Positions 1,512-25,702 of a stretch of 42,988 nt of DNA are shown here, one piece after another. Position 1 is the first letter of the stretch. Each line of letters starts with the position of its first letter. The notes beneath the pieces are model-generated. The model ran no database searches, was not told where the DNA came from, and saw nothing but the letters and a program-made list of their open reading frames with translations. Position numbers and translations under genes: made by a program. This DNA comes from Planctomycetota bacterium (GTDB lineage: Bacteria > Planctomycetota > Phycisphaerae > SM23-33), in assembly GCA_012729725.1 (NCBI GenBank), contig JAAYCO010000085.1:1-42988 (forward strand). The letters are read 5' to 3'.

Positions 1512-3587
1512 TCACCTCAGGATCTGCCTGACTCGGTTGAGGTTCTTTCTTGCGCCGTCATTGGCTGGGTCCAGTTCGAGGCATCGTTCAAAACATTTTC
1601 CTGCCTCAAGCATCAGGTCTCTGCCTGAGGGAGCGCCTCTTGTCAGCAGATCTTCGCCGCGCTGGGCAATACACACGCCGAGGTTGAGCCACGCCTCGTC
1701 GAAGTCCGGGCGCTGGTCGAGACAAAGCCTCCAGAGCACCTCGGAGTGCTCGAACCATTCCATCGAGTGCAGCGTCATGGCGCCCATTCGGTAGGCCATC
1801 GCGGCTGAGGGGTCGCTTCTTCTGCACGCCTCGGCGAAGGCCTGCACGTCGAAGCCGGCGCGCGTGATCTCGTTGGCTCGAATAAGGTTTTCGTGTTGCG
1901 GCGTTCGTCGAGCATAGACGACGAACCAGCAGTCCATGAAGACCATCGCCCAGTCCGGGCTTTGGTCCAGCAGGCGGTTTATGCCGAAGGCGGGGGGCCA
2001 GAGCTGGATGACGGCGACGTCCATGTCCCATTCGCGCAGGCTATCGAGGCTGCCCTTGCCGCCGCACAGGAGCACAGCTTGGCGCATGCGGTCAACCGTC
2101 ATCGACCACGTGTTCGTCAGCACAGGCGCGGCGAGGGCCCGCTTGCTGAAATACATGATGTTGGACGAGCCGGTATAATCGACAAACACGGGAACGTCAG
2201 CGTCAAGGTGAGCGTCAAGCCATTCACAGGTTGATATCGGTAAATTGAACAGGCATTTGCCCGCGCCGAATCGCCATTCGAGTCGGCTGGCTTCGTAGAA
2301 CCTGTTGGTTGTCACCGTTGCCAGCAGCACGCCTGCCGCAAGCGCCAACGCCGGCAGGGCTGCGATTGTGAATCCTGTGCGAAGCCTGCCTCGGGGCAGC
2401 GAACCATCCAGCGCCAACTTCGCCGCTATTGCCCAAAGCGGCAGGCACATGATGGCAGCGGGGGCGATGTTCCGCCGCATCGACCACGATGCCGCCATAA
2501 AGGCGCCCAGCATTGCCAGCAAGGCCCATTGCCTTTTCCACGCCAGAACGGCAGCGACCGGCAGCGCGCCGGCAAGCAGCCCAATGTAGCACCATATCGC
2601 CGGCGTCCATGGCTTGGCGCCCAGCGGCGAGTAGAACTCGCCGATCAGCGCCCATGGGTGGACCTGTCCGGCTGCCTTGCCCCTCGTGCTTTCCATCGTC
2701 TGCCCGGTAATGTCGTTGGCGTTCAGGAAGGCAAGCGTGCGCAGCGGCATGGCGCTGTTGCGAATGCCCGCGGGATGCACAGCCGACAGCACCCCCGCAA
2801 GCACGAACAACAGCGTCAGGCGGTTAACGCGGGCAGCCAGTGCGGCATCCCAGGCCCTGCCCTTGTGGCGGTTCCACAGCAATCGAAGCCACGCCTCGCC
2901 TGCGAATGCGCCGAACATGAAGACGTTCATCACCCAGTAGCTGTGCACGTTCACCGCAATCAACTGCACCAGCAGCACCAGAGCCAGCCGGCGCCTGGTC
3001 ATTTCGCCGCATAGAAGCCAAAGGTGAATCGCCATGCAGGCGTAACCCAGCAGTTCCGGCCGGAGCACAAAACGTTCATAGGCAACCAGCCCCGTGCCGA
3101 GCCATGCAAAGGCGACCCATCCCCACCCCACGCCCAGGCGGCGCATTGCGCCTGCCTGCGCAAGCAGAATCACAGCAACCAGCAACGGGGCCAGCATGCT
3201 CAGCGCGTTCCAGCCCATCCACCGAAGCACTGCCGAGAATATCACCTGGCTGAGCCAGTTGGCGTTGGGGAACCTCAGCCTGCCAGTGTCATCGAACCAT
3301 CCGCCTGGCGCAAGGGCCGGCCGGTCGCCATCCGTCGGGGGTTCGGCGCGGGGGTGGATGAAACTGTCGTCGTCGACGATGCGCCCGGTGTCAAGGAACA
3401 CATCGCCGTAGGCAAGGTGGTAGCCGATATCGTTGCTGGATATCGGCCTGACCGCCAGGCAGATGACCGCTGCGAACGAAGCGACAACCGTCGCGGCCGC
3501 GGCCAGTCGGACGGCAAGCGTCCCGCGCGGGCCCGGTGCGTGCTGCATCGTCGGTGTCTGTGGCGATGGCGTCCGGTGAATCGTCAT
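1512..3587 (-). CDS. Polytopic GT-C-like membrane protein with C-terminal TPR
   Basis: A 691-residue predicted inner-membrane protein with many hydrophobic helices from about residue 20 to 430, then a soluble part. An early extracytoplasmic loop carries SNDIGYHLAYGDVFLDTGRI and later WLSQVIFSAV. These match the D-x-x-x-HLxxG and WLSQ signatures of uncharacterised GT-C-type membrane proteins thought to be polyprenyl-sugar-dependent glycosyltransferases. The last 100 residues (RMGAMTLHSMEWFEHSE, then FDEAWLNLGVCIAQRGED and CFERCLELDPANDGARKNL) look like TPR repeats. The reading frame stays open to 3680, but I choose the ATG at 3587. A TACAAT box sits six bases upstream of it, and the longer N-terminus is arginine-rich and would run across the opposite gene's promoter region. 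Catalytic activity is not demonstrated by the sequence. Confidence 0.75.
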   Translation of the reverse strand: MTIHRTPSPQTPTMQHAPGPRGTLAVRLAAAATVVASFAAVICLAVRPISSNDIGYHLAYGDVFLDTGRIVDDDSFIHPRAEPPTDGDRPALAPGGWFDDTGRLRFPNANWLSQVIFSAVLRWMGWNALSMLAPLLVAVILLAQAGAMRRLGVGWGWVAFAWLGTGLVAYERFVLRPELLGYACMAIHLWLLCGEMTRRRLALVLLVQLIAVNVHSYWVMNVFMFGAFAGEAWLRLLWNRHKGRAWDAALAARVNRLTLLFVLAGVLSAVHPAGIRNSAMPLRTLAFLNANDITGQTMESTRGKAAGQVHPWALIGEFYSPLGAKPWTPAIWCYIGLLAGALPVAAVLAWKRQWALLAMLGAFMAASWSMRRNIAPAAIMCLPLWAIAAKLALDGSLPRGRLRTGFTIAALPALALAAGVLLATVTTNRFYEASRLEWRFGAGKCLFNLPISTCEWLDAHLDADVPVFVDYTGSSNIMYFSKRALAAPVLTNTWSMTVDRMRQAVLLCGGKGSLDSLREWDMDVAVIQLWPPAFGINRLLDQSPDWAMVFMDCWFVVYARRTPQHENLIRANEITRAGFDVQAFAEACRRSDPSAAMAYRMGAMTLHSMEWFEHSEVLWRLCLDQRPDFDEAWLNLGVCIAQRGEDLLTRGAPSGRDLMLEAGKCFERCLELDPANDGARKNLNRVRQILR

Positions 3588-3593
3588 GCTCGG

Positions 3594-3599
3594 ATTGTA
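3594..3599 (-). promoter_or_regulatory. -10 box TACAAT, probable leaderless start
   Basis: On the minus strand TACAAT is followed by six bases and then the chosen ATG (3587). The RNA would begin at or within a base or two of the start codon. No clear -35 hexamer is visible. Confidence 0.45.
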
Positions 3600-3728
3600 C
3601 CGGGTGGGGACGCGGATTTCATCGTGCATGTGCCGGCGCAATTTCTCTGGCAAACCGGCTGCTTGCCGTGATAGAATCACCCGTTCGACGTTATTAATTC
3701 ACGATTAGCAGGTTACAAGAGGATATTC

Positions 3729-3803
3729 ATGGCCAAGCCAAGACGACGCAGGAAGATAGGCTCGAAGAAGCGACGCGAACGCCGCAATCGCAGAAAGCAC
3801 TAG
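3729..3803 (+). CDS. 24-residue highly basic micro-protein, possibly ribosomal
   Basis: A tiny ORF (MAKPRRRRKIG... ending RRKH) in which well over half the residues are arginine or lysine. It has an excellent Shine-Dalgarno, AAGAGGA at 3717-3723, five bases before the ATG, which makes translation credible. Its composition and length recall the AURKAIP1/COX24-type ribosomal micro-proteins (bS22-like) or bTHX of the small subunit, which are short, Arg/Lys-rich rRNA-binding peptides. The sequence is too short to assign by eye. It stands alone, convergent with amrS and divergent from the GT-C-like gene. A TAGAAT box at 3672-3677 could be its -10. If real, it is the kind of gene automated annotation drops. 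Confidence 0.6.
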   Translation: MAKPRRRRKIGSKKRRERRNRRKH

Positions 3804-3895
3804 AGCAACAAGTTTGCGCCTTGCATATGTGCCGCACGATGCGCCGGCGGGGTATCGCTCGCGCACCGGCTCAGGCATGCTTTGGCATGGTCCGC

Positions 3896-4915
3896 CTAGG
3901 GGCTCCAGATTCCCTCGATGGCTCTGTCGCAGTTGGGGCATTTGCCGTTGTTCAGGCGGATGCCGGATATATCGTAGCCTCTGCGATCGATAAGCGTTTC
4001 TCTGCAGGCGGGGCAGTACGTGCTTTCATCGGCCAGGCCGCTGATGTTGCCGCAGTAGACGTATGTCAGGCCTGCTTCAAGCCCTATGTCAGCCGAGCGG
4101 CGCAGCGTTTCCAGCGGGGTGCTGGGCGTGCCGTTCATGCGGTAGTCGCCGTGGAACCTGGTGACGTGCCATGGCACGTGGGCGCCAAGTTCCCGGGCGA
4201 TGAAGGCGGCGATATCGGCAAGTTCCCCGGGCGAGTCGTTCATTCCAGGCACGATCAGCGTTGTCACCTCAAGCCAGATGCCCTTGCCGGCGAGCGCCTT
4301 AAGGCAGTCCAGCACCGGCGCCAGACGGGCCTTCATCACGCGGCGGTACGTGTTGTCGTTGAAGGCTTTGAGATCAACGTTGATCGCGTCGAGATAGGGC
4401 GCAATCGCTTCGACTGCCTCCACTGTCATATATCCGTTTGAGACGAACACGTTGCGGAGGGACTGACGCCGGGCAAGGATGGCGCATTCGTACGCGGTTT
4501 CAAAGTAGATCGTCGGCTCGGTGTACGTGTAGCTGATGGAGGGGCAGTTGCTCTGGATTGCCGCCTGCACGACCTCTTGCGGGGTGGTTGGAATGCCCTC
4601 GATGTCGCCCTGTCTTGGCGATTGAGATATCTGCCAGTTCTGGCAGAATTCGCACTGAAAATTGCACCCGGCTGCGGCAATGGAAAGCGTCTGGGTTCCG
4701 GGCAGAAAGTGGAAAAGGGGCTTTTTCTCAATCGGGTCGATGTTCATCGCCACCAGCAGGCCGTAGTTAAGGCTCAACAGCTTGCCGCCAACATTGCGTC
4801 GGACGCGGCACAAGCCCCACTGGCCCGGCGAAATCAGGCAGCGATGCGCGCACAGAAAGCACTGGGCCTTTTGGTCTTGGGCGGGCGTCCACAGCATTGC
4901 CTCTTTGCTGTCCAT
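3896..4915 (-). CDS. amrS: AmmeMemoRadiSam system radical SAM enzyme AmrS
   Basis: A 339-residue radical SAM enzyme. The SAM-binding cluster motif CNFQCEFC gives C84, C88 and C91. The N-terminal CFLCAHRCLISPGQWGLCRVR block (residues 19-39) and the later YTYTEPTIYFE, NVDLKAFND and PWHVTRFHGDYRM blocks are characteristic of the AmrS family. A C-terminal CPxC pair set (CPACRETLIDRR, then CPNCDRAIEG) adds a zinc-ribbon-like tail. AmrS is normally found with AmrA and AmrB (AMMECR1 and Memo homologues); neither is in this window. The chemistry of the family is not settled. The start is supported by TATAGT six bases upstream and the absence of a Shine-Dalgarno. Confidence 0.93.
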   Translation of the reverse strand: MDSKEAMLWTPAQDQKAQCFLCAHRCLISPGQWGLCRVRRNVGGKLLSLNYGLLVAMNIDPIEKKPLFHFLPGTQTLSIAAAGCNFQCEFCQNWQISQSPRQGDIEGIPTTPQEVVQAAIQSNCPSISYTYTEPTIYFETAYECAILARRQSLRNVFVSNGYMTVEAVEAIAPYLDAINVDLKAFNDNTYRRVMKARLAPVLDCLKALAGKGIWLEVTTLIVPGMNDSPGELADIAAFIARELGAHVPWHVTRFHGDYRMNGTPSTPLETLRRSADIGLEAGLTYVYCGNISGLADESTYCPACRETLIDRRGYDISGIRLNNGKCPNCDRAIEGIWSP

Positions 4916-6077: not shown

Positions 6078-6686
6078 ATGCTCAACCTTTTCGTTGGAAC
6101 ATACATAACGCTGTTCTTTCTTCTGACGCCGTTCTTCGTCGTGTCGTCCTTCCTGTCGCTGACAAGCGAAATGGACAGCAGGCGCAGACGCCGTGTCGCA
6201 TTCCGCACCATCATCACCGTGATCCTGATGACGCTGATCCTGTATCTCTTCGGCAGCAAGATCTTCGTGGTGCTTGGGATAACCATCGACTCGTTCAGAA
6301 TCGGCGGCGGCACGCTGCTGTTTCTGTCGGCGGTGGCGCTGGTCAAGGGCAATGCTGAACAACGCCAGGTCGCCGAAGGCGAGGATGTGGCGATTGTTCC
6401 GCTTGCGCTGCCGATAACGGTAGGCCCGGGAACCACGGCCGCGCTGCTCGTGCTTGGCGCCGAAGTCGCAGGCGAGTACGGGCATTCGATGCGGTCGCAG
6501 TTGACGGCGATAGGGGCGATGCTAGCCGCGGTGCTTACGGTATGCGCCATGATCTGGGCCTCAGCCGTGATGGACAGATTCATTCCCCAGCGAATCATGG
6601 GCATTCTCAGCAAGTTGACGGGATTGATTCTTGCGAGCCTGTCGGCGCAGTTGATCTTCACCGGCATTCGAAACTTCATGAAGTAG
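6078..6686 (+). CDS. MarC-family integral membrane protein
   Basis: A 202-residue inner-membrane protein with about six hydrophobic segments. The order and motifs fit the MarC/YhgN/YchE family: an early FFLLTPFFVVSSFLSLT segment, the GGGTLLFLSAVAL helix, and the PLALPITVGPGTTAALLV loop-helix, where the PxxxGPG pattern is the family hallmark. The molecular role of MarC proteins is not established; the old link to multiple antibiotic resistance was withdrawn for E. coli MarC. Translation starts at 6078 behind GAGGAA. The frame is open 24 codons further up, but that part overlaps the promoter. The gene is followed 14 nt later by cdsA, so the two are probably one transcript. Confidence 0.9.
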   Translation: MLNLFVGTYITLFFLLTPFFVVSSFLSLTSEMDSRRRRRVAFRTIITVILMTLILYLFGSKIFVVLGITIDSFRIGGGTLLFLSAVALVKGNAEQRQVAEGEDVAIVPLALPITVGPGTTAALLVLGAEVAGEYGHSMRSQLTAIGAMLAAVLTVCAMIWASAVMDRFIPQRIMGILSKLTGLILASLSAQLIFTGIRNFMK

Positions 6687-6700
6687 AAGGACAGCCGCTA

Positions 6701-7525
6701 ATGGGCAAGATGACCAAACGGATTGTCTTCGGCGCGCTTCTGATCGCGGCGCTCTCGGCGTTGCTTGTGCTGGACACGTGGCTTGGAAAGACGCGGCCGG
6801 ATCTGCCAGTGGGGCTGGCGGTGGCGTGTCTTCTGGCGTTGTTGGCGTTGGCTGCGTTCGTTGAGGTTCGGGCCATGATCAACAAGTCCGGCGGCGCGGT
6901 GCTGGGCATTTCGGGGTTGCTGGGGAGCATGGCGATTGCGGTCCTGCCGCTGTTTGGCAAGCCTGAGCTTGTGTCGGTAGCGCTGGTCGTGCTGCTTGTT
7001 TTCATCGAGCAAATGATCCGCTTTCGCAAGGAGGGCGCCGTCGCCCGCCTTGGCGGCACAATTCTGGCGATAGGATACGTCGGCGTGGGCATGGCCATGA
7101 TTCTGTCGATACGAACCGGGTACGGCATGGGAATGCTGGTGTTCTTCGTTGCCGCCGTCAAGTTCACGGATATCGGGGCGTACTTCACCGGCACGATGAT
7201 CGGCAGGCACAAGCTTATACCGTGGCTTTCGCCGGGCAAGAGCTGGGAGGGCCTGGCGGGCGGCCTGGTTGCGGCAGTAGCGGTATCGTTTGCGATGAAC
7301 GCCGTTCTGGGCCTGGCGTTAGGCGCCGGGGCCGTGGCTGCGCTGGCGGTAACCGCCGCTATCGCGGGGCAATTCGGCGACCTTTGCGAAAGCCTGCTCA
7401 AGCGCAGCGCCGGCGTGAAGGATTCCGGGTCGCTCGTGCCGGAATTCGGCGGCGTGCTGGACATGATCGACTCGCCGTTGCTTGCAGCGGGACCGGTTCT
7501 GGCGATGCTGTCGCTACTGGCCTAA
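6701..7525 (+). CDS. cdsA: Phosphatidate cytidylyltransferase CdsA
   Basis: A 274-residue membrane enzyme that makes CDP-diacylglycerol from phosphatidate and CTP, the entry point to bacterial phospholipids. Successive hydrophobic helices precede the FTDIGAYFTGTMIGRHKL and SPGKSWEG motifs and the C-terminal CDP-alcohol signature (LLKRSAGVKDSGSLVPEFGGVLDMIDS in two parts). The usual PGHGGxxDRxD is here PEFGGVLDMID: the His and the Arg are replaced while both Asp residues are kept. The ATG at 6701 has AAGGA at 6687-6691. It follows marC by 14 nt. A hairpin begins at the stop codon. Confidence 0.92.
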   Translation: MGKMTKRIVFGALLIAALSALLVLDTWLGKTRPDLPVGLAVACLLALLALAAFVEVRAMINKSGGAVLGISGLLGSMAIAVLPLFGKPELVSVALVVLLVFIEQMIRFRKEGAVARLGGTILAIGYVGVGMAMILSIRTGYGMGMLVFFVAAVKFTDIGAYFTGTMIGRHKLIPWLSPGKSWEGLAGGLVAAVAVSFAMNAVLGLALGAGAVAALAVTAAIAGQFGDLCESLLKRSAGVKDSGSLVPEFGGVLDMIDSPLLAAGPVLAMLSLLA

Positions 7526-7710: not shown

Positions 7711-8949
7711 TCACATTCCACTTAGATTCGGCGCCCCGGCGGGGGCGTGATCAAGCCTGATCGACTGCAACAGGTGGATGAACGCATCGGCCATCGGGTC
7801 TGCCTCGGGCGCATCCGCGGCGTTCATCACAATGACCATCGGCGCGATGTCCTGCGAGGGTTCGCCTGCCCACATCAAGGCCAGCCAACTGTGCCACTTC
7901 ATCTCGGTCGGCCAGAGAATCGAAACAATCTCCGCCGAGCCATGGCTGATTTCCAACTGCTTGTGCGTAACGACAAGATACCCCTTCGCCGCCAGCCTTT
8001 GCTGGTAATCGTCAAGCAGTTCGTCGCTTGTCGCCCTCCACTTGCCGCCCTGCACGCGTGCGAACAACTCGCCGCCGGGCTGGGGCGTGAGGTATATCTG
8101 GACGAACGGGTTGGCGGTGGCGTCGTACTTCATTTCGCCGCGTGGGTCGCGCTGCCATTTCTGGGGCGGCAGCACCGCCAGTTGCAGACCCGCCTGGCTC
8201 TTCACCTCGGCTGGGGGCATTTCGCCCCTGGCGTCGAGGCGTCTGACCTTGAGGCTCCTGATGATCGCCTCGGCAGGAGATCCATAGCGGTCCATAAGTT
8301 CAACTACTTGGGCATCGGGGCGGGCGGGCGGCGTCTGACCGCCGCGCACGGACAGTATCCAGTCTGCAAGGCTTGCATCCGGTGCGAGCTTGTCGCTGTG
8401 GGCCTGTTGCACGTCGATCGTCAGCGGGGCGCTTGGATACGCGGCAGACACGCGCCGCCAGCCCAGCAGGCAGTGGGCCCGCTCGCTCAGGCCGCTGACC
8501 GTCGCCCAGATGGGCAGATTCGCCAGGCGGCCGTCGAGTTGAAGCAGGCGAATGTCAGAGCCGTCGTACTCGACCGGCCCAACGTCCACCAGCACCGCGC
8601 CGATGAGCCTGTCGCTCATGCGATTGAGCAACGTAATAGCGCCTCTGGCCCACTGGCCCGAGGAAACCAGCAGCACCCGCGAGGAGTCAACCTGATGCGC
8701 TGCCGACACTTCATCCACCGCCTTCTGCACGTCGATCACGTTGGCGAGCCAGTCTTCAGAAGGTTTGCCCATGCGGATGACGAACCAATCGTCGCCGCCC
8801 GTCCAAGGGGCGTCTCCAAGCACAATCGCCAGCGGATGCCCCGCCTCGCCGGAGGAGGGCGGCTGGACTTCGTAAGGCATTGTGCTTGGGGCAGCATAGA
8901 GAAACGTGCATGCCAGCAATGCTAGAAGTGGAACAACGGATATCTTCAT
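7711..8949 (-). CDS. Exported protein, degenerate alpha/beta-hydrolase-like N-terminal half
   Basis: A 412-residue protein starting MKISVVPLLALLACTFLYA, a signal peptide, so secreted to the periplasm. The first half has the rhythm of a feruloyl-esterase or dienelactone-hydrolase-like fold: DVQKAVDEVSAAHQVDSSRV, then LLVSSGQWARGAITLL where active enzymes have GxSxGG. The nucleophile elbow is not recognisable, so catalysis by a Ser triad is doubtful. The second half (from about residue 250) has no recognised domain. The ATG at 8949 follows a GAGGAG site. The same frame is open to 9066, but the extra residues have no signal character. The gene lies 113 nt downstream of the Gfo/Idh gene and may share its transcript. 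Confidence 0.7.
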   Translation of the reverse strand: MKISVVPLLALLACTFLYAAPSTMPYEVQPPSSGEAGHPLAIVLGDAPWTGGDDWFVIRMGKPSEDWLANVIDVQKAVDEVSAAHQVDSSRVLLVSSGQWARGAITLLNRMSDRLIGAVLVDVGPVEYDGSDIRLLQLDGRLANLPIWATVSGLSERAHCLLGWRRVSAAYPSAPLTIDVQQAHSDKLAPDASLADWILSVRGGQTPPARPDAQVVELMDRYGSPAEAIIRSLKVRRLDARGEMPPAEVKSQAGLQLAVLPPQKWQRDPRGEMKYDATANPFVQIYLTPQPGGELFARVQGGKWRATSDELLDDYQQRLAAKGYLVVTHKQLEISHGSAEIVSILWPTEMKWHSWLALMWAGEPSQDIAPMVIVMNAADAPEADPMADAFIHLLQSIRLDHAPAGAPNLSGM

Positions 8950-9062
8950 GGCGGCTCCTCGTGTGTCGCATTTTGAACGACCGGCAGCGGTGATCCGGCG
9001 CGAACAGGCATCCAGTAGAACATGTTGGCGCCCACGAATGCAAGACCACGCACGGGGCGCAA

Positions 9063-9986
9063 TCACGCTTTGGGATACTTCTGCTTGCGATACAGCCGGG
9101 CGAATTCGGCGCCGTCATAGCCGGCAGTGTTGGAATCCAGCTCGGTCAACTGGACGACCCTGTCGCCCTCAGTCCATGAAACCATCGCGGCGATGGCTGC
9201 AAGCTCGGGCTCGATCAACTGGTCGAATTCCACCGGGGGCCTGTCCTGCACGCCGGCAAGGTAAGGCAGCGTCGCATTCAACAACGCGGCGTACACCTTG
9301 CCGGACTCGACAATGAACTGCGTGACTTGCTTGTCGGTGCAGATTGAGGCGTGGAATGGCAACCAATTATCGGCAGCGCCAATTACCAGTATCGCCGTTC
9401 TGCCGTCTGCCCAATCCACCTGCACCCGTCGCTGAACGTGGCGGCCCAAATGCCTGACGCTCTTGATGCCAGGCCCCATGATGCCGCTGATCAGCGAATA
9501 GGCGTGGATGCCATAGTTGAAATCGTCAACGGCGCAGCCGGCGAAGACAGTGTGAGCGGCGCCGCGCTTGGCGACATCCTGCGCCAGCCACTGCCGCTTC
9601 TCGTCGCAGAAACGCAGGGACGACCCGCCCGTTATGCGAGCGCCTTGCCTGACCCACTTGCGGAATTGCTCCAGGTCGCGAATGTTTCCTGCAATTGGCT
9701 TGTCCACCAGAACCGCCTTGCCCGCCTCTACGAACGGCGCCGCCTTGGCGACATGCGAATCCCAATCGCAACTGTGGATGATGGCGCAATCAACGTCGCG
9801 CGCCATCTGCGACAGATCGTCATAAACCCTGGGGATGCTGTGCTCACGGGAGAACTCTTTGGCGTACAGCGGGGGATGAACGTCGCCCGAATCCAGAATT
9901 CCTGCGACCTCGTGTCCAAGCTGCCGCTCGATGGGGATCCAGTTCCGAGGGTGCGAGGTGTCCAGGTCCACAATGCCAATCTTCAT
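9063..9986 (-). CDS. Gfo/Idh/MocA-family NAD(P)-dependent oxidoreductase
   Basis: A 307-residue dehydrogenase-like protein. The N-terminal Rossmann strand MKIGIVDLDTSHPRNW lacks the usual GxGxxG and has the DTSH form seen in a subgroup of the family. The catalytic-lysine motif appears as VLVDKPIAG (EKP in most members) at about residue 93. Downstream residues form the alpha/beta substrate domain. Planctomycetota carry many such paralogues acting on sugars, inositols or related polyols, and the substrate here cannot be read from sequence. The ATG at 9986 is preceded by AGGAG at good spacing. Genome position alone does not tie it to a pathway. Confidence 0.87.
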   Translation of the reverse strand: MKIGIVDLDTSHPRNWIPIERQLGHEVAGILDSGDVHPPLYAKEFSREHSIPRVYDDLSQMARDVDCAIIHSCDWDSHVAKAAPFVEAGKAVLVDKPIAGNIRDLEQFRKWVRQGARITGGSSLRFCDEKRQWLAQDVAKRGAAHTVFAGCAVDDFNYGIHAYSLISGIMGPGIKSVRHLGRHVQRRVQVDWADGRTAILVIGAADNWLPFHASICTDKQVTQFIVESGKVYAALLNATLPYLAGVQDRPPVEFDQLIEPELAAIAAMVSWTEGDRVVQLTELDSNTAGYDGAEFARLYRKQKYPKA

Positions 9987-10031: not shown

Positions 10032-11702
10032 TCAGCCCGGCCCGTGCCGAGTGGCGGTAAGATCGAATTCCTCCGGGCTTGATGAATCGCCGGTGACGAC
10101 TATTCCCTGCTCAACAAGCGAATCCCAGTGTTTTTCATTGAAGATGCATCCCGGATCGCCGGCGTGAAGCTTGCCGAAATACGCGTCGGCCCTCGCACGG
10201 CAGCCGCCGCAGTAGCTCTTGAACGAGCATGCTCCGCAATGGTGCAGCCGGCGGTCGCGGTCATTGAGGATGTCCCAGAACACGCTCTTGCGAAAGATGT
10301 CGACGAAGGGCGCCTCTCGCACGTTGCCCATGACGCGGTGGGGCAGGTAGACGCACGGCGTAACGTCGCCGTTTGGCTCCACGCAAACATACGTTCGTCC
10401 CGCGCCGCACCCGCCCAGATACTTCGCCACAACGCGGGCCTTTACGCCGCTGCCGCTGCCGGCGTGCGAGCACGCCACTCTCCCGCCGTCGATGGCGGCC
10501 CCGGCGAGACATACTCTTCCCAGTTGCGGCGCCGTGGAAATTATGCCCATGCCGCCTTCCTGCATGCGGCGGTTAAGAATGGCCAGCAGATCCTCCCGCT
10601 GGCGCGGCGAAATGTCGCCGCTGACCATCTTCAAGCCCCTGCCCACGGGGATGAAGTTGAAGTGAGCGAAGCACCCCGCGCCTATCTGGCGGGCGAATTC
10701 GATCATTTCTTCAACTTCGTGATAATTGCCCTGGTGCACGCACATCGCTATGCCCAGCCGGAGTCCCTTGGTGGCGGCGACTATCCTGGCGGCGTTGACC
10801 GACCGCTCCCACATGCCCTTGACGCCTCGAAATGCGTCGTGTCTTTGCGGATTGACGCTGTCCAGGGATATCTCAACATATCGCAGACCAGCGCCGGCGA
10901 GCTTCTCGGCAAGGTCGTTGGTCATGGTCGTGCCGTTGGTGGCAAGCGTGGTGTGCATGCCGTATTTGGCGGCCTGGCGCAGAACCGGCAGCAGGTCCGG
11001 GCTTATTGTCGGCTCGCCGCCCGAAAGCGCCAGCATGGGCATGTGCATCGCGCCCATCTGGTCAACAAGATCGAGCTTTTCCTGAAGCTTCAACTCGTTT
11101 TCAAGGGCTGAGTGCTCGCTGTCCTGGTAGCAATGACGGCAGGCGAGGTTGCATCTGTTGGTGAAGTTCCATACGGCGAACAGCGGGGCGGAGAATTTCT
11201 GCGGCGTGGTCAGACCGAACTCGCTGACCGACCGCGCGACGACCACGAGCCCCCGCAGCGTCGGCGAGTGGTGAGCGATTCTCTGGCGGAAGTCTTCCAC
11301 GCTGCTCTTCCCGCGCATGCGGTCGATGAACTTGTGGATCGGCCAATACAATATCCGCTGCATCAGCGTTGCCGACGGATCGCGATACGTTGTGATGATT
11401 CGCTCGAGAATCGTCTTGCCGTCGCGCCCCGCCCTGGACAACCTGCCCAGCAGCCAGCGCATAGGCTTGCGCCCAAGCCAGTTCTCAAGCGGGTGATGAT
11501 ACTCCAGCCGAACGGCCGACGCGGTCTGATTGTCTTCGCCGGCGGAGGCTGTGTAATCGCTGCTGGAAACATAGCCATCCTGGCGATCTGAAGAAGCTTG
11601 CTGCGGCGCGTCAAATTCGTGATCGTACTGTTTGCCCATGGCCGCAGCCGTCGTGTGTTTTCCGGCAGCGGTATACGACAATCCCTGTCGCTCAGTCGTC
11701 AT
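10032..11702 (-). CDS. Radical SAM/SPASM enzyme with long N-terminal extension
   Basis: A 556-residue radical SAM protein. The cluster motif CNLACRHC gives C184, C188 and C191, preceded by PLFAVWNFTNR. Then come LALSGGEPT, TLATNGTTM and YVEISLDSVNPQRHDAFRG. The C-terminal SPASM region has many cysteines (CLAGAA, CSHAG, GGCGAGRTYVCVEPNGDVTPC, HHCGACSFKSYCGGCRARA) for auxiliary 4Fe-4S clusters. The core resembles the NirJ/AhbC/AhbD heme-modifying group and peptide-modifying SPASM enzymes, but the substrate is not determined. Residues 1-130 are an extension with no domain I recognise. I chose the ATG at 11702 because it overlaps the TGA of the upstream gene (ATGA), implying translational coupling; upstream in-frame starts exist. 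It is the last gene of the three-gene iron-sulfur cassette. Confidence 0.88.
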   Translation of the reverse strand: MTTERQGLSYTAAGKHTTAAAMGKQYDHEFDAPQQASSDRQDGYVSSSDYTASAGEDNQTASAVRLEYHHPLENWLGRKPMRWLLGRLSRAGRDGKTILERIITTYRDPSATLMQRILYWPIHKFIDRMRGKSSVEDFRQRIAHHSPTLRGLVVVARSVSEFGLTTPQKFSAPLFAVWNFTNRCNLACRHCYQDSEHSALENELKLQEKLDLVDQMGAMHMPMLALSGGEPTISPDLLPVLRQAAKYGMHTTLATNGTTMTNDLAEKLAGAGLRYVEISLDSVNPQRHDAFRGVKGMWERSVNAARIVAATKGLRLGIAMCVHQGNYHEVEEMIEFARQIGAGCFAHFNFIPVGRGLKMVSGDISPRQREDLLAILNRRMQEGGMGIISTAPQLGRVCLAGAAIDGGRVACSHAGSGSGVKARVVAKYLGGCGAGRTYVCVEPNGDVTPCVYLPHRVMGNVREAPFVDIFRKSVFWDILNDRDRRLHHCGACSFKSYCGGCRARADAYFGKLHAGDPGCIFNEKHWDSLVEQGIVVTGDSSSPEEFDLTATRHGPG

Positions 11703-13516
11703 GTTGACTCCGTCCGCCATGCCGCCTCGACGAGCGGGCGGTATTCCGGCCCGCAGTTGTAGGCGCAAAACGGAAAGACGCCTTTGGGCGTCGAATACAA
11801 AATAACGCATCTTTTTACACGTTCAACATCGTAGTTGTAGCGGTCCTGGAAGTGCATGCCGGCGCACAGCAGGGTGTGATACGTCTGCTTCTGGCCTTCG
11901 CCTCGTCCGATGTTCTTGTCCACCAGCCCCTGAAGAGACCTGATGAACCTCTTCAACGTCAGGCCCGGCGGCGCCTGCTTTTCGTTGAAGTGCCTTTTGA
12001 ACATCCGCCACGTGCGCCACATGTCCAGTTTGGTCGCCCTGCCTCGAAGCGTAATGCGGCGCGCTATCTGGTTCATTTCGCTGAACATGCCTTCCACGTC
12101 AATCACCCTTGGAAACGGATACGCCTTTCCATCGGGGCTTATAAGGAAGTACGTTCCAAACGCGCAGTCGGGATGACAACTCGGCCTGATTTTTGGCTTG
12201 CCCGTCAGGGCTTCGAGAATCTGCGACAGCGGCACAACAACGCTCAGCGGGAACATGTCCTGCAGGGGGCTTGCGCCGGATGCCTCGGCAATTCCGTGCG
12301 CCAGATCGCCAAGCGTGTAGCGGCGGGCCTTCAATTCGCCGGGATCGATCCTGCCGGTGAAACTGACGGGCTGATAGCTGATTGCGCTGATGACGTCGAT
12401 GTTTTTCACCGCGAACTTGAATATCTCGCCGACCTGGTTGTCGTTGACGCCCTTGAGGATCGTCGGCACCAGGCAGATTTTCATGCCGGTCTTGCGGCAA
12501 TTCTCGATGGCGGCGACCTTCTTGCTCCAAAGATTCGGATAATTTCGGGTAAGCCTGTGCGGCTCGTCGCCGACGCCGTCAAATTGCATGTAGATGGTGT
12601 GCAGCCCAGCCTCGATGCAGCGGCGGGCGAAGTCCTCGTTGGCAAGCGTCAGGCCGTTGGTTGCGATCTGAATGTGCGAAAACCCCATGTCTCTTGCCGT
12701 GGAGACAATCTTGAGAAAATCCGGATGCACCGTTGGCTCGCCGCCGGTGAACTGGATGGCGGTGCACGGGGTCGGGCGCAGGTCGCGCAGAACCTGCAAC
12801 TGGCGCACTATCTCCTCATATGGCGGCTCGAAGACTCTGCCGGTTACGCCGGCGTTCGCAAAGCAAACGGGGCAGCGCATGTTGCAGCGGTTGGTCAGGT
12901 CTATCTGCGCCAGACACGGGCTGGAAAGGTGCTGGCCGCACAGGCCGCAGTCGCTGGGGCAGTTGCCCGTGCCGATGGTCTGGGGATACTTCTGGCCGGG
13001 CGCTTCCTCGAAGCTCCACCACGCAGCCTTTGAATACAGAAGGGCGTCGCTGTTGACGCAGTCGATGAAATGCCCATGCTCGGGGCAGTGCTTCTCGATC
13101 ATCACCTTTCCGTCCTGCACGAAGTATCTGCCAAGGATAATTGACGAGCATTCCGGGCAGAGCGTCTCGACCGTGCGAGGCAGGCGGCGAAGGACCGGCT
13201 TGATCGCCGCGCCGCTGAAGGTTGTCTCGGGGCTGCCCGGCACGTCGCTTCGTCCGTCGGACCAGATGCGATCGTGATGCACCTCGCTTCGTGGGCCGCA
13301 GGTGTCGCAGCCGAACTTCAGCACCACCTGATCGCCGACGCGTGTGAACTGGGCGTCAACAACCTCGCCGCAGGTTGGGCAGGTGGCGCGTGTGCAAAGG
13401 GGCAATTGCAGGTGCAGGCGGCGAAAGCGGCGAATACGCTGCCTGAAGTCGTCGCAAGACTCTACTGCGCGGTTGTCAGCCGGCGGTTGCATTTCCTCAA
13501 CGGATTGACTCATCAT
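11699..13516 (-). CDS. Radical SAM enzyme of the Tes/MJ0619 family
   Basis: A 605-residue multi-cluster radical SAM protein. The SAM motif is C211, C215, C218 (LTNRCNMRCPVCFANAG). The preceding CPEC (C120, C123), CPEHG (C144) and GNCPSDCGLC (C186, C190, C193) and the C-terminal LLCAGMHFQDRYNYD...RCVILY...FCAYN block are the signature of the family holding archaeal tetraether lipid synthase (Tes) and the methanogen methylase MJ0619. Tes couples two lipid tails by C-C bond formation; bacterial members are mostly uncharacterised. An extra N-terminal ribbon (C41, C46, C49, C70, C73) looks like a copy of the CPEC...CPEHG module. The next gene overlaps by four bases, and the dehydratase-like gene ends 33 nt upstream. 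Start is one of two adjacent ATGs (13516 or 13513). Confidence 0.88.
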   Translation of the reverse strand: MMSQSVEEMQPPADNRAVESCDDFRQRIRRFRRLHLQLPLCTRATCPTCGEVVDAQFTRVGDQVVLKFGCDTCGPRSEVHHDRIWSDGRSDVPGSPETTFSGAAIKPVLRRLPRTVETLCPECSSIILGRYFVQDGKVMIEKHCPEHGHFIDCVNSDALLYSKAAWWSFEEAPGQKYPQTIGTGNCPSDCGLCGQHLSSPCLAQIDLTNRCNMRCPVCFANAGVTGRVFEPPYEEIVRQLQVLRDLRPTPCTAIQFTGGEPTVHPDFLKIVSTARDMGFSHIQIATNGLTLANEDFARRCIEAGLHTIYMQFDGVGDEPHRLTRNYPNLWSKKVAAIENCRKTGMKICLVPTILKGVNDNQVGEIFKFAVKNIDVISAISYQPVSFTGRIDPGELKARRYTLGDLAHGIAEASGASPLQDMFPLSVVVPLSQILEALTGKPKIRPSCHPDCAFGTYFLISPDGKAYPFPRVIDVEGMFSEMNQIARRITLRGRATKLDMWRTWRMFKRHFNEKQAPPGLTLKRFIRSLQGLVDKNIGRGEGQKQTYHTLLCAGMHFQDRYNYDVERVKRCVILYSTPKGVFPFCAYNCGPEYRPLVEAAWRTEST

Positions 13517-13549
13517 GTAATCCCAGCCGCTTTCGGGGCGGCAATACCG

Positions 13550-14839
13550 TCACCCGCCAAAAAACGCCGGATACCGACGAGCCGTCTTCTTGCGCTTCGC
13601 GTAGCTCACAGCCAGCTCCATGAAGATGTCCAGGTCGCGTTCCATGTTCGAGCTGCTGGAGTCGAAGTAGAAGTTGCGGATAGGCATGCCGTCGCACGCC
13701 TCGCTGACGCGATGATAAACGGCCTCGCTGACGATTCCGTTCATGCACGAGAACGGGCTGATGTCTATGATTCCGTCCGCGCCCTTGACATGCAGATAGA
13801 AAGTCTTGCCGACTGACAGAACCATCTCGCCCAGTGCGCCGTCGGCGGGAAGGTACGGCCAGGCCGGGCGGAGCACATCTTCGTACACGTCGTGCGGCTC
13901 TTCGTATCCGGCGAAGTCCTCTGCGAACGGTTCAAGAATCCTGTGTTCGTCGGACTTCTGAATCTTGTTCTTGACGATCGCGCCGAGCATGGCCAACGAG
14001 ATTGTCTTGCCGTCCCGTTTCAGCAGGCTCTTCTGCGACCAGTTGGTGTACCACACCCATTCGGTGACGTCGCTCAGCCACGCCTCGCCGCCGTGCTGCT
14101 CTATTTTGCGAACCGCGTCATAGTTGCTGAACGTATTGAGGCGGCAGAATATTTCACCGACCACGCCTATCAGCGGCCGGCCTTTGACGTACTTGGCGGG
14201 AACGCTTCTGAACAGGTCCCGGCAGCGGGTCATGACGGCGACGATGGCCTCAGTCTGTTTGGCGCCCTTGAGGCCGCTCTGCTGGAGGACTTCTTCCAGC
14301 ATGTCCATTGATTTGGCGTATGCCGCGTCGGCGAGTCCCTTTTGGGTTTCGTAGGGTCTCGTTTTGAGCAGCATCTTTCGCAGAATATCGCCGGCGACAA
14401 GCCCGCGCCACATCGATCGCATCATCGTGGTGACGTTTCCGGCCAGGCCGTCGTATCCGTTCTTGCTGGATGGGCTGATGACCGGCACGTCGCCATGGCC
14501 CATTTCTCCAAGCACCTGTCGCAGGTACGGGGCATACTGCCCGAAGCGGCAGGGGCCTTCTGCCGTTGGCATGAAGAACGCGTGGCGGGACGGGTCGAAG
14601 TCCGGCGCGTGAACGATGCGCATGAAGTCGCCCAGCGTCACCTTTTCCGGGTAGCATTCCTCGCCGCTGCAATAAAGCCCGCCATACTGCAACGTGCTAT
14701 CATCCGAAGGGGGCGTGACGCGTGATTCGATTCCGTTTGCGCGAAAGACGGCCGCCATCATCCTGCCGCCGATGTGCGTCATCCGCGGAATCCACAGCGT
14801 CCGTCCCTCCAAACGGTTGTCAACTTTGGTCGCAGGCAT
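13550..14839 (-). CDS. Stand-alone 2-hydroxyacyl-CoA dehydratase/activase-like Fe-S protein
   Basis: A 429-residue protein similar to the C-terminal (HgdB-like, DUF2229-type) part of large acyl-CoA dehydratase activase-related proteins. Conserved-looking cysteines are C57 and C62 (LYCSGEECYPEKVTLGDF), C97 (EGPCRFGQYAPYLRQVL), C232 (GEIFCRLN) and C365 (SPFSCMNG). The CYPxK and GPCRFGxY motifs are typical of that group, which binds 4Fe-4S clusters and handles very low-potential electrons. The ATP-dependent ASKHA activator domain that is usually fused or adjacent is absent here. It is first in a three-gene cassette with two radical SAM enzymes, so a redox or electron-delivery role for them, or a paired reaction on the same substrate, is possible but inferred. 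A TACAAT box lies 12 bases before the ATG. Confidence 0.85.
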   Translation of the reverse strand: MPATKVDNRLEGRTLWIPRMTHIGGRMMAAVFRANGIESRVTPPSDDSTLQYGGLYCSGEECYPEKVTLGDFMRIVHAPDFDPSRHAFFMPTAEGPCRFGQYAPYLRQVLGEMGHGDVPVISPSSKNGYDGLAGNVTTMMRSMWRGLVAGDILRKMLLKTRPYETQKGLADAAYAKSMDMLEEVLQQSGLKGAKQTEAIVAVMTRCRDLFRSVPAKYVKGRPLIGVVGEIFCRLNTFSNYDAVRKIEQHGGEAWLSDVTEWVWYTNWSQKSLLKRDGKTISLAMLGAIVKNKIQKSDEHRILEPFAEDFAGYEEPHDVYEDVLRPAWPYLPADGALGEMVLSVGKTFYLHVKGADGIIDISPFSCMNGIVSEAVYHRVSEACDGMPIRNFYFDSSSSNMERDLDIFMELAVSYAKRKKTARRYPAFFGG

Positions 14840-23832: not shown

Positions 23833-24992
23833 AAATCGCCTGGGTTATCGAGCAGATGAACACGAGCAACGGCGGGAAAGAGACATCCACCGCGCAGGTC
23901 GTTGGCGCACTTGCCGATGCCGGGCACGAAGTTGTTATTCTCTGCCAGAAGGGTTCATGGTCGCATCCCGGCGTGACGGTCAATCAACTGGGCGTCCGCG
24001 GGCCAACGCGACGCGCTCAGGCTGCGAACTTTGCTTCAGACGTGGTGTCGGCGGTCAACGCAGGCGGTTTTGACATCGTGCACACTGTAACGCCGGTTAA
24101 CGGAGCGAATGTCTATCAACTGCGCAGCGGCTCAATTCCCGGCCAGATCGAAGCCGGCAGCAGGCGCTGGGGTCGCCTTGGCTTCGTGCGCAAGATGCTT
24201 GCGCCCTTGAGCCTTCGCAGGGCTCTGCTTGGCAGGATTGAGAAGCAGATGGCAGCCCAGCCGGGCGTGAAGTTTCTGCCGGTCAGTCGGATGGTCGCCC
24301 AGGAGCTTGCGCAGCATTACGGCCTGGGCAGTCAGGTCTGCGTGGTGTACAACGCGGTGTCGGGGCCGTCGGTCTCGCCCGACCAGCGGGCAAAGTGGCG
24401 ACGCGAGCTGCGGGCAAGAATCGGGGCCTCGGACGACGCGGTGGTTTTCGTCACTGCCGCCAATAACATGCTTCTCAAAGGCGTGCCGCAAACGCTACGC
24501 CACTTCGCCCGCTGGCGTGATGAATCCGCCCGGAAGGCGCCGGCAAGACTTGTGGTGATTGGCGATGAGTCCGCCCGTCGCATGGGCAGGCTTGCGGCGA
24601 GGCTTGGCGTCAAAGACGAAGTGGTGTTCGTGCCGCACGTGGATGATGTATTCCCGTGGTATTCCGCTGCCGACGCATGCATTCTGTTAAGCTGGTACGA
24701 CCCATGCAGCCGGGTTGTGCTGGAGGCGCTGCGATGGGGCCTTCCGTCCATCACAACCGTCTATAACGGCGCAGCCGAGGCGCTAGCGCGCGGTGGCGGC
24801 ATAGTAGTCTCTTCTCCCGAAGACGCCAGGGCTGTTGTGGCTGCGATGGCCGAACTTGCCGACCCGTCTCATCGCCGCCGCAGGATCGAGGCATGCGAAT
24901 CCTGCGTCGAGGAGATATCGATCGAGCATCACGTTGCGCGGTTGCTGGAAGTGTATGAATCTCTGGTCCGGCGGCGAATCCAGCAAATGTGA
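23829..24992 (+). CDS. Glycosyltransferase family 4 (WaaG-like)
   Basis: A 387-residue GT-B fold glycosyltransferase. The first Rossmann half opens KIAWVIEQMNTSNGGKETS; the second half has RLGVKDEVVFVPHVDDVFPWY, DACILLSWYDPCSRVVLEAL and GLPSITTVYNG. The E of VVLEAL is the family's EX7E nucleotide-sugar site, and the sequence continues to a GGGIVV segment. It resembles WaaG, which transfers glucose to the LPS core, but the donor and acceptor cannot be told. Translation starts at TTG 23829, behind AGGAGG at 23818-23823, overlapping the kinase stop codon. It is co-transcribed with waaF, the core kinase and plsY. Confidence 0.9.
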   Translation: MKIAWVIEQMNTSNGGKETSTAQVVGALADAGHEVVILCQKGSWSHPGVTVNQLGVRGPTRRAQAANFASDVVSAVNAGGFDIVHTVTPVNGANVYQLRSGSIPGQIEAGSRRWGRLGFVRKMLAPLSLRRALLGRIEKQMAAQPGVKFLPVSRMVAQELAQHYGLGSQVCVVYNAVSGPSVSPDQRAKWRRELRARIGASDDAVVFVTAANNMLLKGVPQTLRHFARWRDESARKAPARLVVIGDESARRMGRLAARLGVKDEVVFVPHVDDVFPWYSAADACILLSWYDPCSRVVLEALRWGLPSITTVYNGAAEALARGGGIVVSSPEDARAVVAAMAELADPSHRRRRIEACESCVEEISIEHHVARLLEVYESLVRRRIQQM

Positions 24993-25702
24993 TCCAGGAT
25001 GTGCTTGCAGTTGCTCGTCAAGTGCGCAAAATTGCGAGACCTATGAATCTTCATCCAGCGACCATAGTGATACTGTCGGCGGCAGCGTCTTACATAATCG
25101 GCGCAACGCCGTTCGGCATGATCATCAGCCGGCTAAAAGGCGTTGACCTGAGGAAGTCGGGCAGCGGCAACATCGGGGCCACCAACGTGGGCAGGGTTCT
25201 TGGTCGAAGGTGGGGCTACCTGTGCTTTCTTCTTGATCTGGCCAAGGGGCTGGCGCCGGTCGTGGCGGCAGGGATGATCTCAGACTTCGCGGGCATGTCG
25301 TTTCTGCTTAAGCAATTCGTCTGGCTCGCGGCGGGTCTTGGGGCGATCCTTGGTCACGTGTTCACCTTCTGGCTCGCCTTCCGAGGCGGCAAGGGCGTGG
25401 CGACGGCGCTTGGCGTGGTCCTTGGCGTGTTTCCATACCTCACGCTGCCTGGGCTTGCTGCCTTTGGCATTTGGATCGCCGTGACGCTGATAACGCGATA
25501 TGTCTCGGTCGGCAGCATCGCCGCGGCGCTGGCGTTTGCGCCATTATTCGTAGTGATGAACTACCGAACGATAGGCGAACTGGCGCCGCTGGCGACGTTC
25601 GCGGGTCTCATGATTCTGCTGATACTGGCGCGGCACCTAACGAACATGCGGCGGCTTCTGGCCGGCGTTGAGAATAAGATTGGAAGCAAGGCCGGGCGAT
25701 AA
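24989..25702 (+). CDS. plsY: Glycerol-3-phosphate acyltransferase PlsY
   Basis: A 237-residue (GTG start) or 219-residue (ATG at 25043) inner-membrane enzyme that transfers an acyl group from acyl-phosphate to glycerol-3-phosphate, the first step of phospholipid synthesis. Signature motifs are SGSGNIGATNVGRVLG, the GxxxGH helix (GLGAILGHVFTFW) and FRGGKGVATALG. About six to seven transmembrane helices are evident. The GTG at 24989 overlaps the previous stop (GTGA) and fits the coupling in this operon. The ATG at 25043 is closer to the first helix and typical PlsY length, so either may be used. An inverted repeat ending in TTTT follows. Confidence 0.95.
   Translation: MIQDVLAVARQVRKIARPMNLHPATIVILSAAASYIIGATPFGMIISRLKGVDLRKSGSGNIGATNVGRVLGRRWGYLCFLLDLAKGLAPVVAAGMISDFAGMSFLLKQFVWLAAGLGAILGHVFTFWLAFRGGKGVATALGVVLGVFPYLTLPGLAAFGIWIAVTLITRYVSVGSIAAALAFAPLFVVMNYRTIGELAPLATFAGLMILLILARHLTNMRRLLAGVENKIGSKAGR

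Follow-up and report, generated by a model that had tools for sequence, protein, structure and literature searches.

Three consecutive genes on the minus strand of a planctomycete contig raise the question of whether they belong to one pathway and, if so, what that pathway makes. Within the analyzed stretch of 42,988 nt (hereafter, the window), gene 1 (13550..14839, 429 aa), gene 2 (11699..13516, 605 aa) and gene 3 (10032..11702, 556 aa) follow one another, the first two separated by 33 nt and the last two overlapping by 4 nt (ATGA, 11699-11702), an arrangement already described in a first-pass annotation and confirmed here from the open reading frames and their spacing. Homology identifies gene 1 as the putative beta-like module, or back half, of a glycerol ester reductase (Ger/PlsA type) that is divided in two, gene 2 as a homologue of the tetraether synthase Tes, and gene 3 as a Gms-like radical SAM/SPASM enzyme.

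Gene order among relatives

The order gene 1-tes-gms, on the same strand, was found at 24 loci (the window and 23 other genomes), with further loci cut by contig ends, and is far beyond chance; a search for the trio in order in other genomes was the check that the first-pass annotation had put forward. Among 60 relatives, Tes was present in 41 and a Gms-type gene in 35 (partial genes at contig ends were counted by hand), and all 35 carriers of the Gms-type gene also carried Tes (Fisher p 9e-11 over the 60 genomes, uncorrected for relatedness). The tes and gms genes are also adjacent in families with a fused Ger and elsewhere. A few Tes cassettes stand without gms (G215, G219), indicating that a cassette can do without gene 3.

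Many relatives have a gap of 500-800 nt between tes and gms that codes for a lipoprotein of ~160 aa; this protein has a lipobox and an invariant Trp-Pro and matched no Pfam family (examples are L111:~3984-4490, L118:~3538-4044, and L121). A profile of this protein detected it in 26 of the 60 relatives, one copy each, and in 25 of them right after tes; in the tes-less genome G235 its gene lies behind gene 1 and the front half of Ger described below. The window genome, with its overlapping genes 2 and 3, has lost the lipoprotein. At one locus (L128, genome G221), the tes-gms gap contains a 331-aa ankyrin-repeat-like open reading frame besides the lipoprotein.

Downstream of the trio, a GFO/IDH/MocA gene (9063-9986) and a gene for a 451-aa protein (7711-9066) were considered and left out of the cassette, as neither has a counterpart near it in relatives. 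Elsewhere in the window, two general phospholipid genes were observed, namely a CdsA-like phosphatidate cytidylyltransferase (6593-7525, plus strand; below cut-off) and a PlsY acyltransferase (24989-25702, plus strand; over cut-off), together with a radical SAM enzyme of the AmmeMemoRadiSam system (3896-4915, minus strand; 360.7 bits, cut-off 220). The window genome also has a pair of adjacent SPASM radical SAM genes on another contig (G000:C56:12258-14344, minus strand), and comparable pairs occur in many relatives.

Two radical SAM enzymes

Genes 2 and 3 had been read from the letters as radical SAM enzymes, the latter with a SPASM domain, and these domains scored above the Pfam cut-offs. 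The Tes/MJ0619 signature noticed in gene 2 was likewise substantiated, with 494.5 bits against the Tes equivalog NF045702 (cut-off 450) and a match to MJ0619 (PDB 7TOL; E 1.2e-115) aligned over 477 residues. Twelve cysteines of gene 2 (Cys120, 123, 144, 186, 190, 193, 211, 215, 218, 451, 570 and 584) align with cysteines of MJ0619 in a comparison covering the radical SAM cluster, the auxiliary clusters and the zinc site, and all twelve are kept in 22 of 22 cassette-type Tes sequences. The radical SAM CX3CX2C motif (CNMRCPVC) lies at 12863..12886 (minus strand). Relative to archaeal Tes, the cassette type has an extra zinc-ribbon-like element near its N-terminus (CPTC...CDTC; 13298..13381, minus strand), whose four cysteines were found in 91-100% of the 22 cassette sequences vs. 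0-8% of 12 archaeal ones. In the phylogeny, cassette Tes proteins formed a clade of their own (100/100), joined to archaeal and other bacterial Tes at a star-like centre. The window genome has a single Tes; in two genomes of the class, a second, divergent Tes lies beside the cassette Tes (L149 in G246, L148 in G248).

A search with gene 3 retrieved a homologue from Methanocaldococcus sp. SG1 (residues 90-524, E 4e-74), which has Cys123, Cys127, Cys370, Cys372, F326, S334 and N351 at the numbers published for Gms, and Ala for E346; the published numbering is that of Methanothermococcus okinawensis (PMC11186832). This archaeal protein was present in 10 of 36 Methanococci genomes. In the reverse search with archaeal Gms, the gene 3 protein was the best match in cassette genomes, usually with its N-terminal domain covered, and other SPASM proteins matched only from residue ~80 on. 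In a tree restricted to the radical SAM and SPASM columns, the cassette proteins joined archaeal (Methanococci) Gms (98/95), and 28 other SPASM proteins fell outside this group. The branch between the cassette clade and archaeal Gms was long (0.76), and gene 3 was 31-34% identical to the latter.

The domain layout of Gms (N-terminal helical domain, radical SAM domain, bridging region and SPASM domain) was recovered in gene 3. Its N-terminal helical domain (11208..11501, minus strand) matched that of Gms in a profile-profile comparison (hhalign, E 1.1e-7); among 14 other SPASM N-termini, only a Helarchaeota protein did so as well. The radical SAM CX3CX2C motif (CNLACRHC) lies at 11130..11153, and a STAP motif in the bridging/hairpin region, common to archaeal Gms in the alignment, at 10524..10538 (both minus strand). 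Differences were concentrated in the SPASM auxiliary-cluster cysteines (10146..10415, minus strand), where gene 3 lacks the full archaeal arrangement of four cysteines in each of AuxI and AuxII: archaeal AuxI Cys372 is replaced by Ala, with Cys440 of gene 3 six residues later (GGCGAGRTYVC), and the other SPASM cysteines are kept. All 35 cassette proteins have Ala at position 372, followed after 3-6 residues by a Cys in 34, so that the fourth AuxI ligand of cassette Gms-type proteins appears to have moved. Assignment of gene 3 to AhbC, AhbD or NirJ was rejected, as these models gave 177-227 bits vs. the 500-650 needed and the tree set gene 3 apart. As judged from sequence, gene 3 is related to the archaeal GMGT synthase Gms; H-bridge formation, taken alone, is somewhat favoured as its job.

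A glycerol ester reductase in two pieces

Gene 1 alone matched no Pfam or NCBIfam family, and membership in HGD-D/HgdB (PF06050) was discarded, with no Pfam match at E<=10 and no PDB relative. It was assigned to the back half of Ger because it aligns to the end of full-length Ger/PlsA-like proteins: it shares 33-37% identity with the last ~400 aa of fused proteins of ~1430 aa, and its matches, in 199 genomes of the phylum, mostly fall at the ends of such proteins. The front half was located on a different contig of the window genome as a separate 1043-aa open reading frame (G000:C23:21195-24326), flanked by lysS-like and lnt-like frames (read by eye). This front protein aligns to the first ~1020 residues of fused Ger-type proteins, gene 1 aligning to the remainder, and contains two BcrAD_BadFG activase domains (PF01869), each with a CAAGTGSF motif, together with DUF2229. 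Thus, the complete Ger set (two PF01869, DUF2229 and the C-terminal module) is present, spread over polypeptides of 1043 and 429 aa rather than in a single one of ~1430 aa.

The split Ger replaces the fused one in the family of the window genome. In its relatives, the front lies 68-173 nt upstream of gene 1 (G206, G220, G232, G233, G205), ~2 kb upstream (G230, G213), or adjoining it (G214, G224, G235, G244). Other families of the class have a fused Ger (open frames of 1431-1551 aa) and a tes-gms pair without gene 1; the two-piece state is therefore probably the derived one, in which the operon took up the back half. A Ger in two frames, with front and back ~1.2 kb apart, was also observed in another family of the phylum (f38; L036 in G126), where the split is perhaps independent.

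Gene 1 proved homologous to the DUF2229-type module of the front protein (profile comparison, hhalign E 2.7e-7), with three cysteines in matching places, which puts the break point of Ger between the alpha-like and beta-like modules. The 2-hydroxyacyl-CoA dehydratases, in which HgdAB works with the activase HgdC, are likewise divided between alpha-like and beta-like modules. Cys62 and Cys97 of gene 1 (14534..14668, minus strand), invariant in 9 orthologues and aligned with cysteines of the front's DUF2229-type module, are candidate [4Fe-4S] ligands, as is Cys365 (13736-13762) as the third. Of the HgdB-like/DUF2229 character initially ascribed to gene 1, the relationship to a DUF2229-type module stood, and an HgdB assignment by Pfam or PDB did not. 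The role of electron supplier that had been its main proposed function was dropped, given the alignment of gene 1 with the C-terminal part of fused Ger and the location of the activases in the separate front protein; a second, beta-like catalytic half of Ger is the likelier identity of gene 1. Single-sequence AlphaFold models of the gene 1 and gene 3 proteins reached pLDDT values of 36-40 and were not used.

Predicted pathway, alternatives and known systems

We consider it likely that the trio constitutes most of an operon making membrane-spanning ether lipids. The earlier suggestion that the three proteins act on one substrate, possibly a membrane-spanning lipid, is supported by the synteny in 24 genomes and by the homology and phylogeny of all three genes, which point to lipid-tail and ether-bond chemistry, at a modest identity of about 31-46% to characterized enzymes or close orthologues. 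Overall, the pathway would start from ordinary ester phospholipids and, under anoxia, yield ether lipids that span the membrane and are cross-linked. Initially, a two-subunit Ger would be formed by the front protein (two ATP-dependent activase modules and an alpha-like iron-sulfur module) and gene 1 (the beta-like iron-sulfur subunit); ATP hydrolysis by the front would drive low-potential electrons into the paired iron-sulfur modules, which would reduce acyl ester bonds to ethers, presumably alkyl rather than vinyl. Gene 2 would then join the ends of two lipid tails, presumably iso-branched (brGDGT/brGMGT-like), by radical SAM chemistry, giving a membrane-spanning chain, and gene 3 would add a C-C bond between both chains, giving an H-shaped, GMGT-like lipid; this order of steps is itself a prediction. 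The product is probably H-bridged and brGMGT-like. In its fullest form, the proposal is of a self-contained operon (split Ger, Tes, exported lipoprotein and Gms) leading to brGMGTs, which would be the first physically linked gene set for these orphan lipids used as climate proxies, with the lipoprotein as a new partner at the outer face and Ger divided exactly between its alpha- and beta-like modules; for this combination we regard the chances as evenly balanced.

The explanation to which we give least credence is that the genes are chance neighbours with unrelated functions: in G055, a more distant member of the phylum, Tes, Gms and Ger are indeed found on different contigs, yet the reading is contradicted by the shared order and strand at 24 loci and by the 35/35 co-occurrence. 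Also highly improbable is that the trio modifies a soluble cofactor or peptide, through pterin methylation of the MJ0619 type, heme chemistry of the AhbD/NirJ type or SPASM peptide maturation. MJ0619 was once linked to pterin methylation, Pfam still names its zinc ribbon HMPTM, and NirJ2 and AhbD are the best NCBIfam matches of gene 3; these matches, however, reach 227 and 223 bits of the 500 required in each case, gene 3 groups with Gms away from other SPASM proteins, and gene 1 is Ger/PlsA-like. The modified cofactor entertained in the first-pass annotation also sits poorly with the PDB title of MJ0619, deposited as a GDGT/macrocyclic archaeol synthase, and with the Ger-like and Gms-like partners of gene 2.

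Two other possibilities, both rather unlikely, would keep a lipid as the substrate. Within the same pathway, gene 3 could carry out another C-C step (such as closing a cyclopentane ring, forming a different cross-link or rearranging a methyl group) instead of the GMGT bridge; its identity to Gms of only ~33%, the long branch between the two clades, and the AuxI ligand displaced in 34 of 35 members and missing in one would agree with this. Against it stand the Gms-type N-terminal domain and the STAP hairpin motif common to both, the different architecture of GrsA, which makes the archaeal rings and lacks auxiliary clusters (PMC11186832), and the tracking of Black Sea brGMGT by Planctomycetota Gms homologues, which match it in depth (PMC11868695). 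Alternatively, front and gene 1 could be PlsA-like, and the membrane-spanning lipids made by the operon would then carry vinyl ethers (plasmalogen type) or a mixture of esters and ethers. Sequence does not distinguish Ger from PlsA, the enzyme for vinyl ethers, and membrane-spanning lipids with vinyl ethers are made by Bacillota that have both pathways (PMC13274423); on the other hand, the front has two activase domains, an architecture associated with validated alkyl-ether-forming Ger, and one-activase forms correlate with plasmalogens (PMC13274423). The reading we prefer remains an alkyl-ether pathway ending in an H-bridged lipid.

The components of this pathway had been proposed separately (PMC8941075, PMC11186832, PMC13274423), including bacterial Tes homologues for brGDGT synthesis (PMC8941075), and homologues of Tes, GrsA, Gms, Mss and Ger have been reported in Planctomycetota MAGs (PMC11868695), in a text that contains neither the word 'adjacent' nor 'synteny'. 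The initial statement that no described pathway unites the trio held for the physical cassette, of which, as of the split Ger and the lipoprotein, no description was found in the open-access literature. The brGDGTs serve as proxies for past temperature and pH, and many of their producers and, beyond a few cultures, most of their pathway are unknown (PMC13274423, PMC11868695). The cassette would offer a concrete gene cluster to test for the unsolved source of these lipid climate proxies and a genomic marker for producers. With the predicted genes for making ethers, for coupling tails and for a Gms-like cross-linker in one operon, a single construct could be tested for the whole product, and the operon link turns the occurrence of Tes and Gms homologues in bacteria into a functional hypothesis. 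As an archaeal-type trait in a bacterial lineage, it also bears on the lipid divide.

Among known systems, gene 2 resembles Tes/GDGT-MAS (MJ0619; Zeng 2022, PMC8941075) in passing NF045702, in its near full-length match and in the shared cysteines, and differs in being bacterial, in its extra N-terminal four-Cys element and in belonging to a separate clade (100/100). With Mss, the membrane-spanning lipid synthase of Bacillota and Thermotogota (PMC13274423), the cassette shares tail-to-tail coupling, the same overall job as predicted here, but uses the Tes type. Gene 3 shares with Gms (Li 2024, PMC11186832) the N-terminal domain, the CX3CX2C motif, the bridging STAP region and SPASM, as its sister clade (98/95), and departs from it in sequence (31-34% identical), in the shift of one AuxI Cys by a few residues and in an N-terminal leader of ~70 aa. 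Front and gene 1 combined reproduce the two BcrAD_BadFG domains, DUF2229 and C-terminal module of Ger/PlsA (PMC13274423, PMC11150832), here as two proteins, the back half within the tes-gms operon and the front elsewhere in the window genome. The layout of an ATP-driven activase with two homologous iron-sulfur modules is also that of HgdC and HgdAB; unlike these, gene 1 on its own has no match among HGD-D models or solved structures, and the predicted substrate is a lipid ester, not an acyl-CoA.
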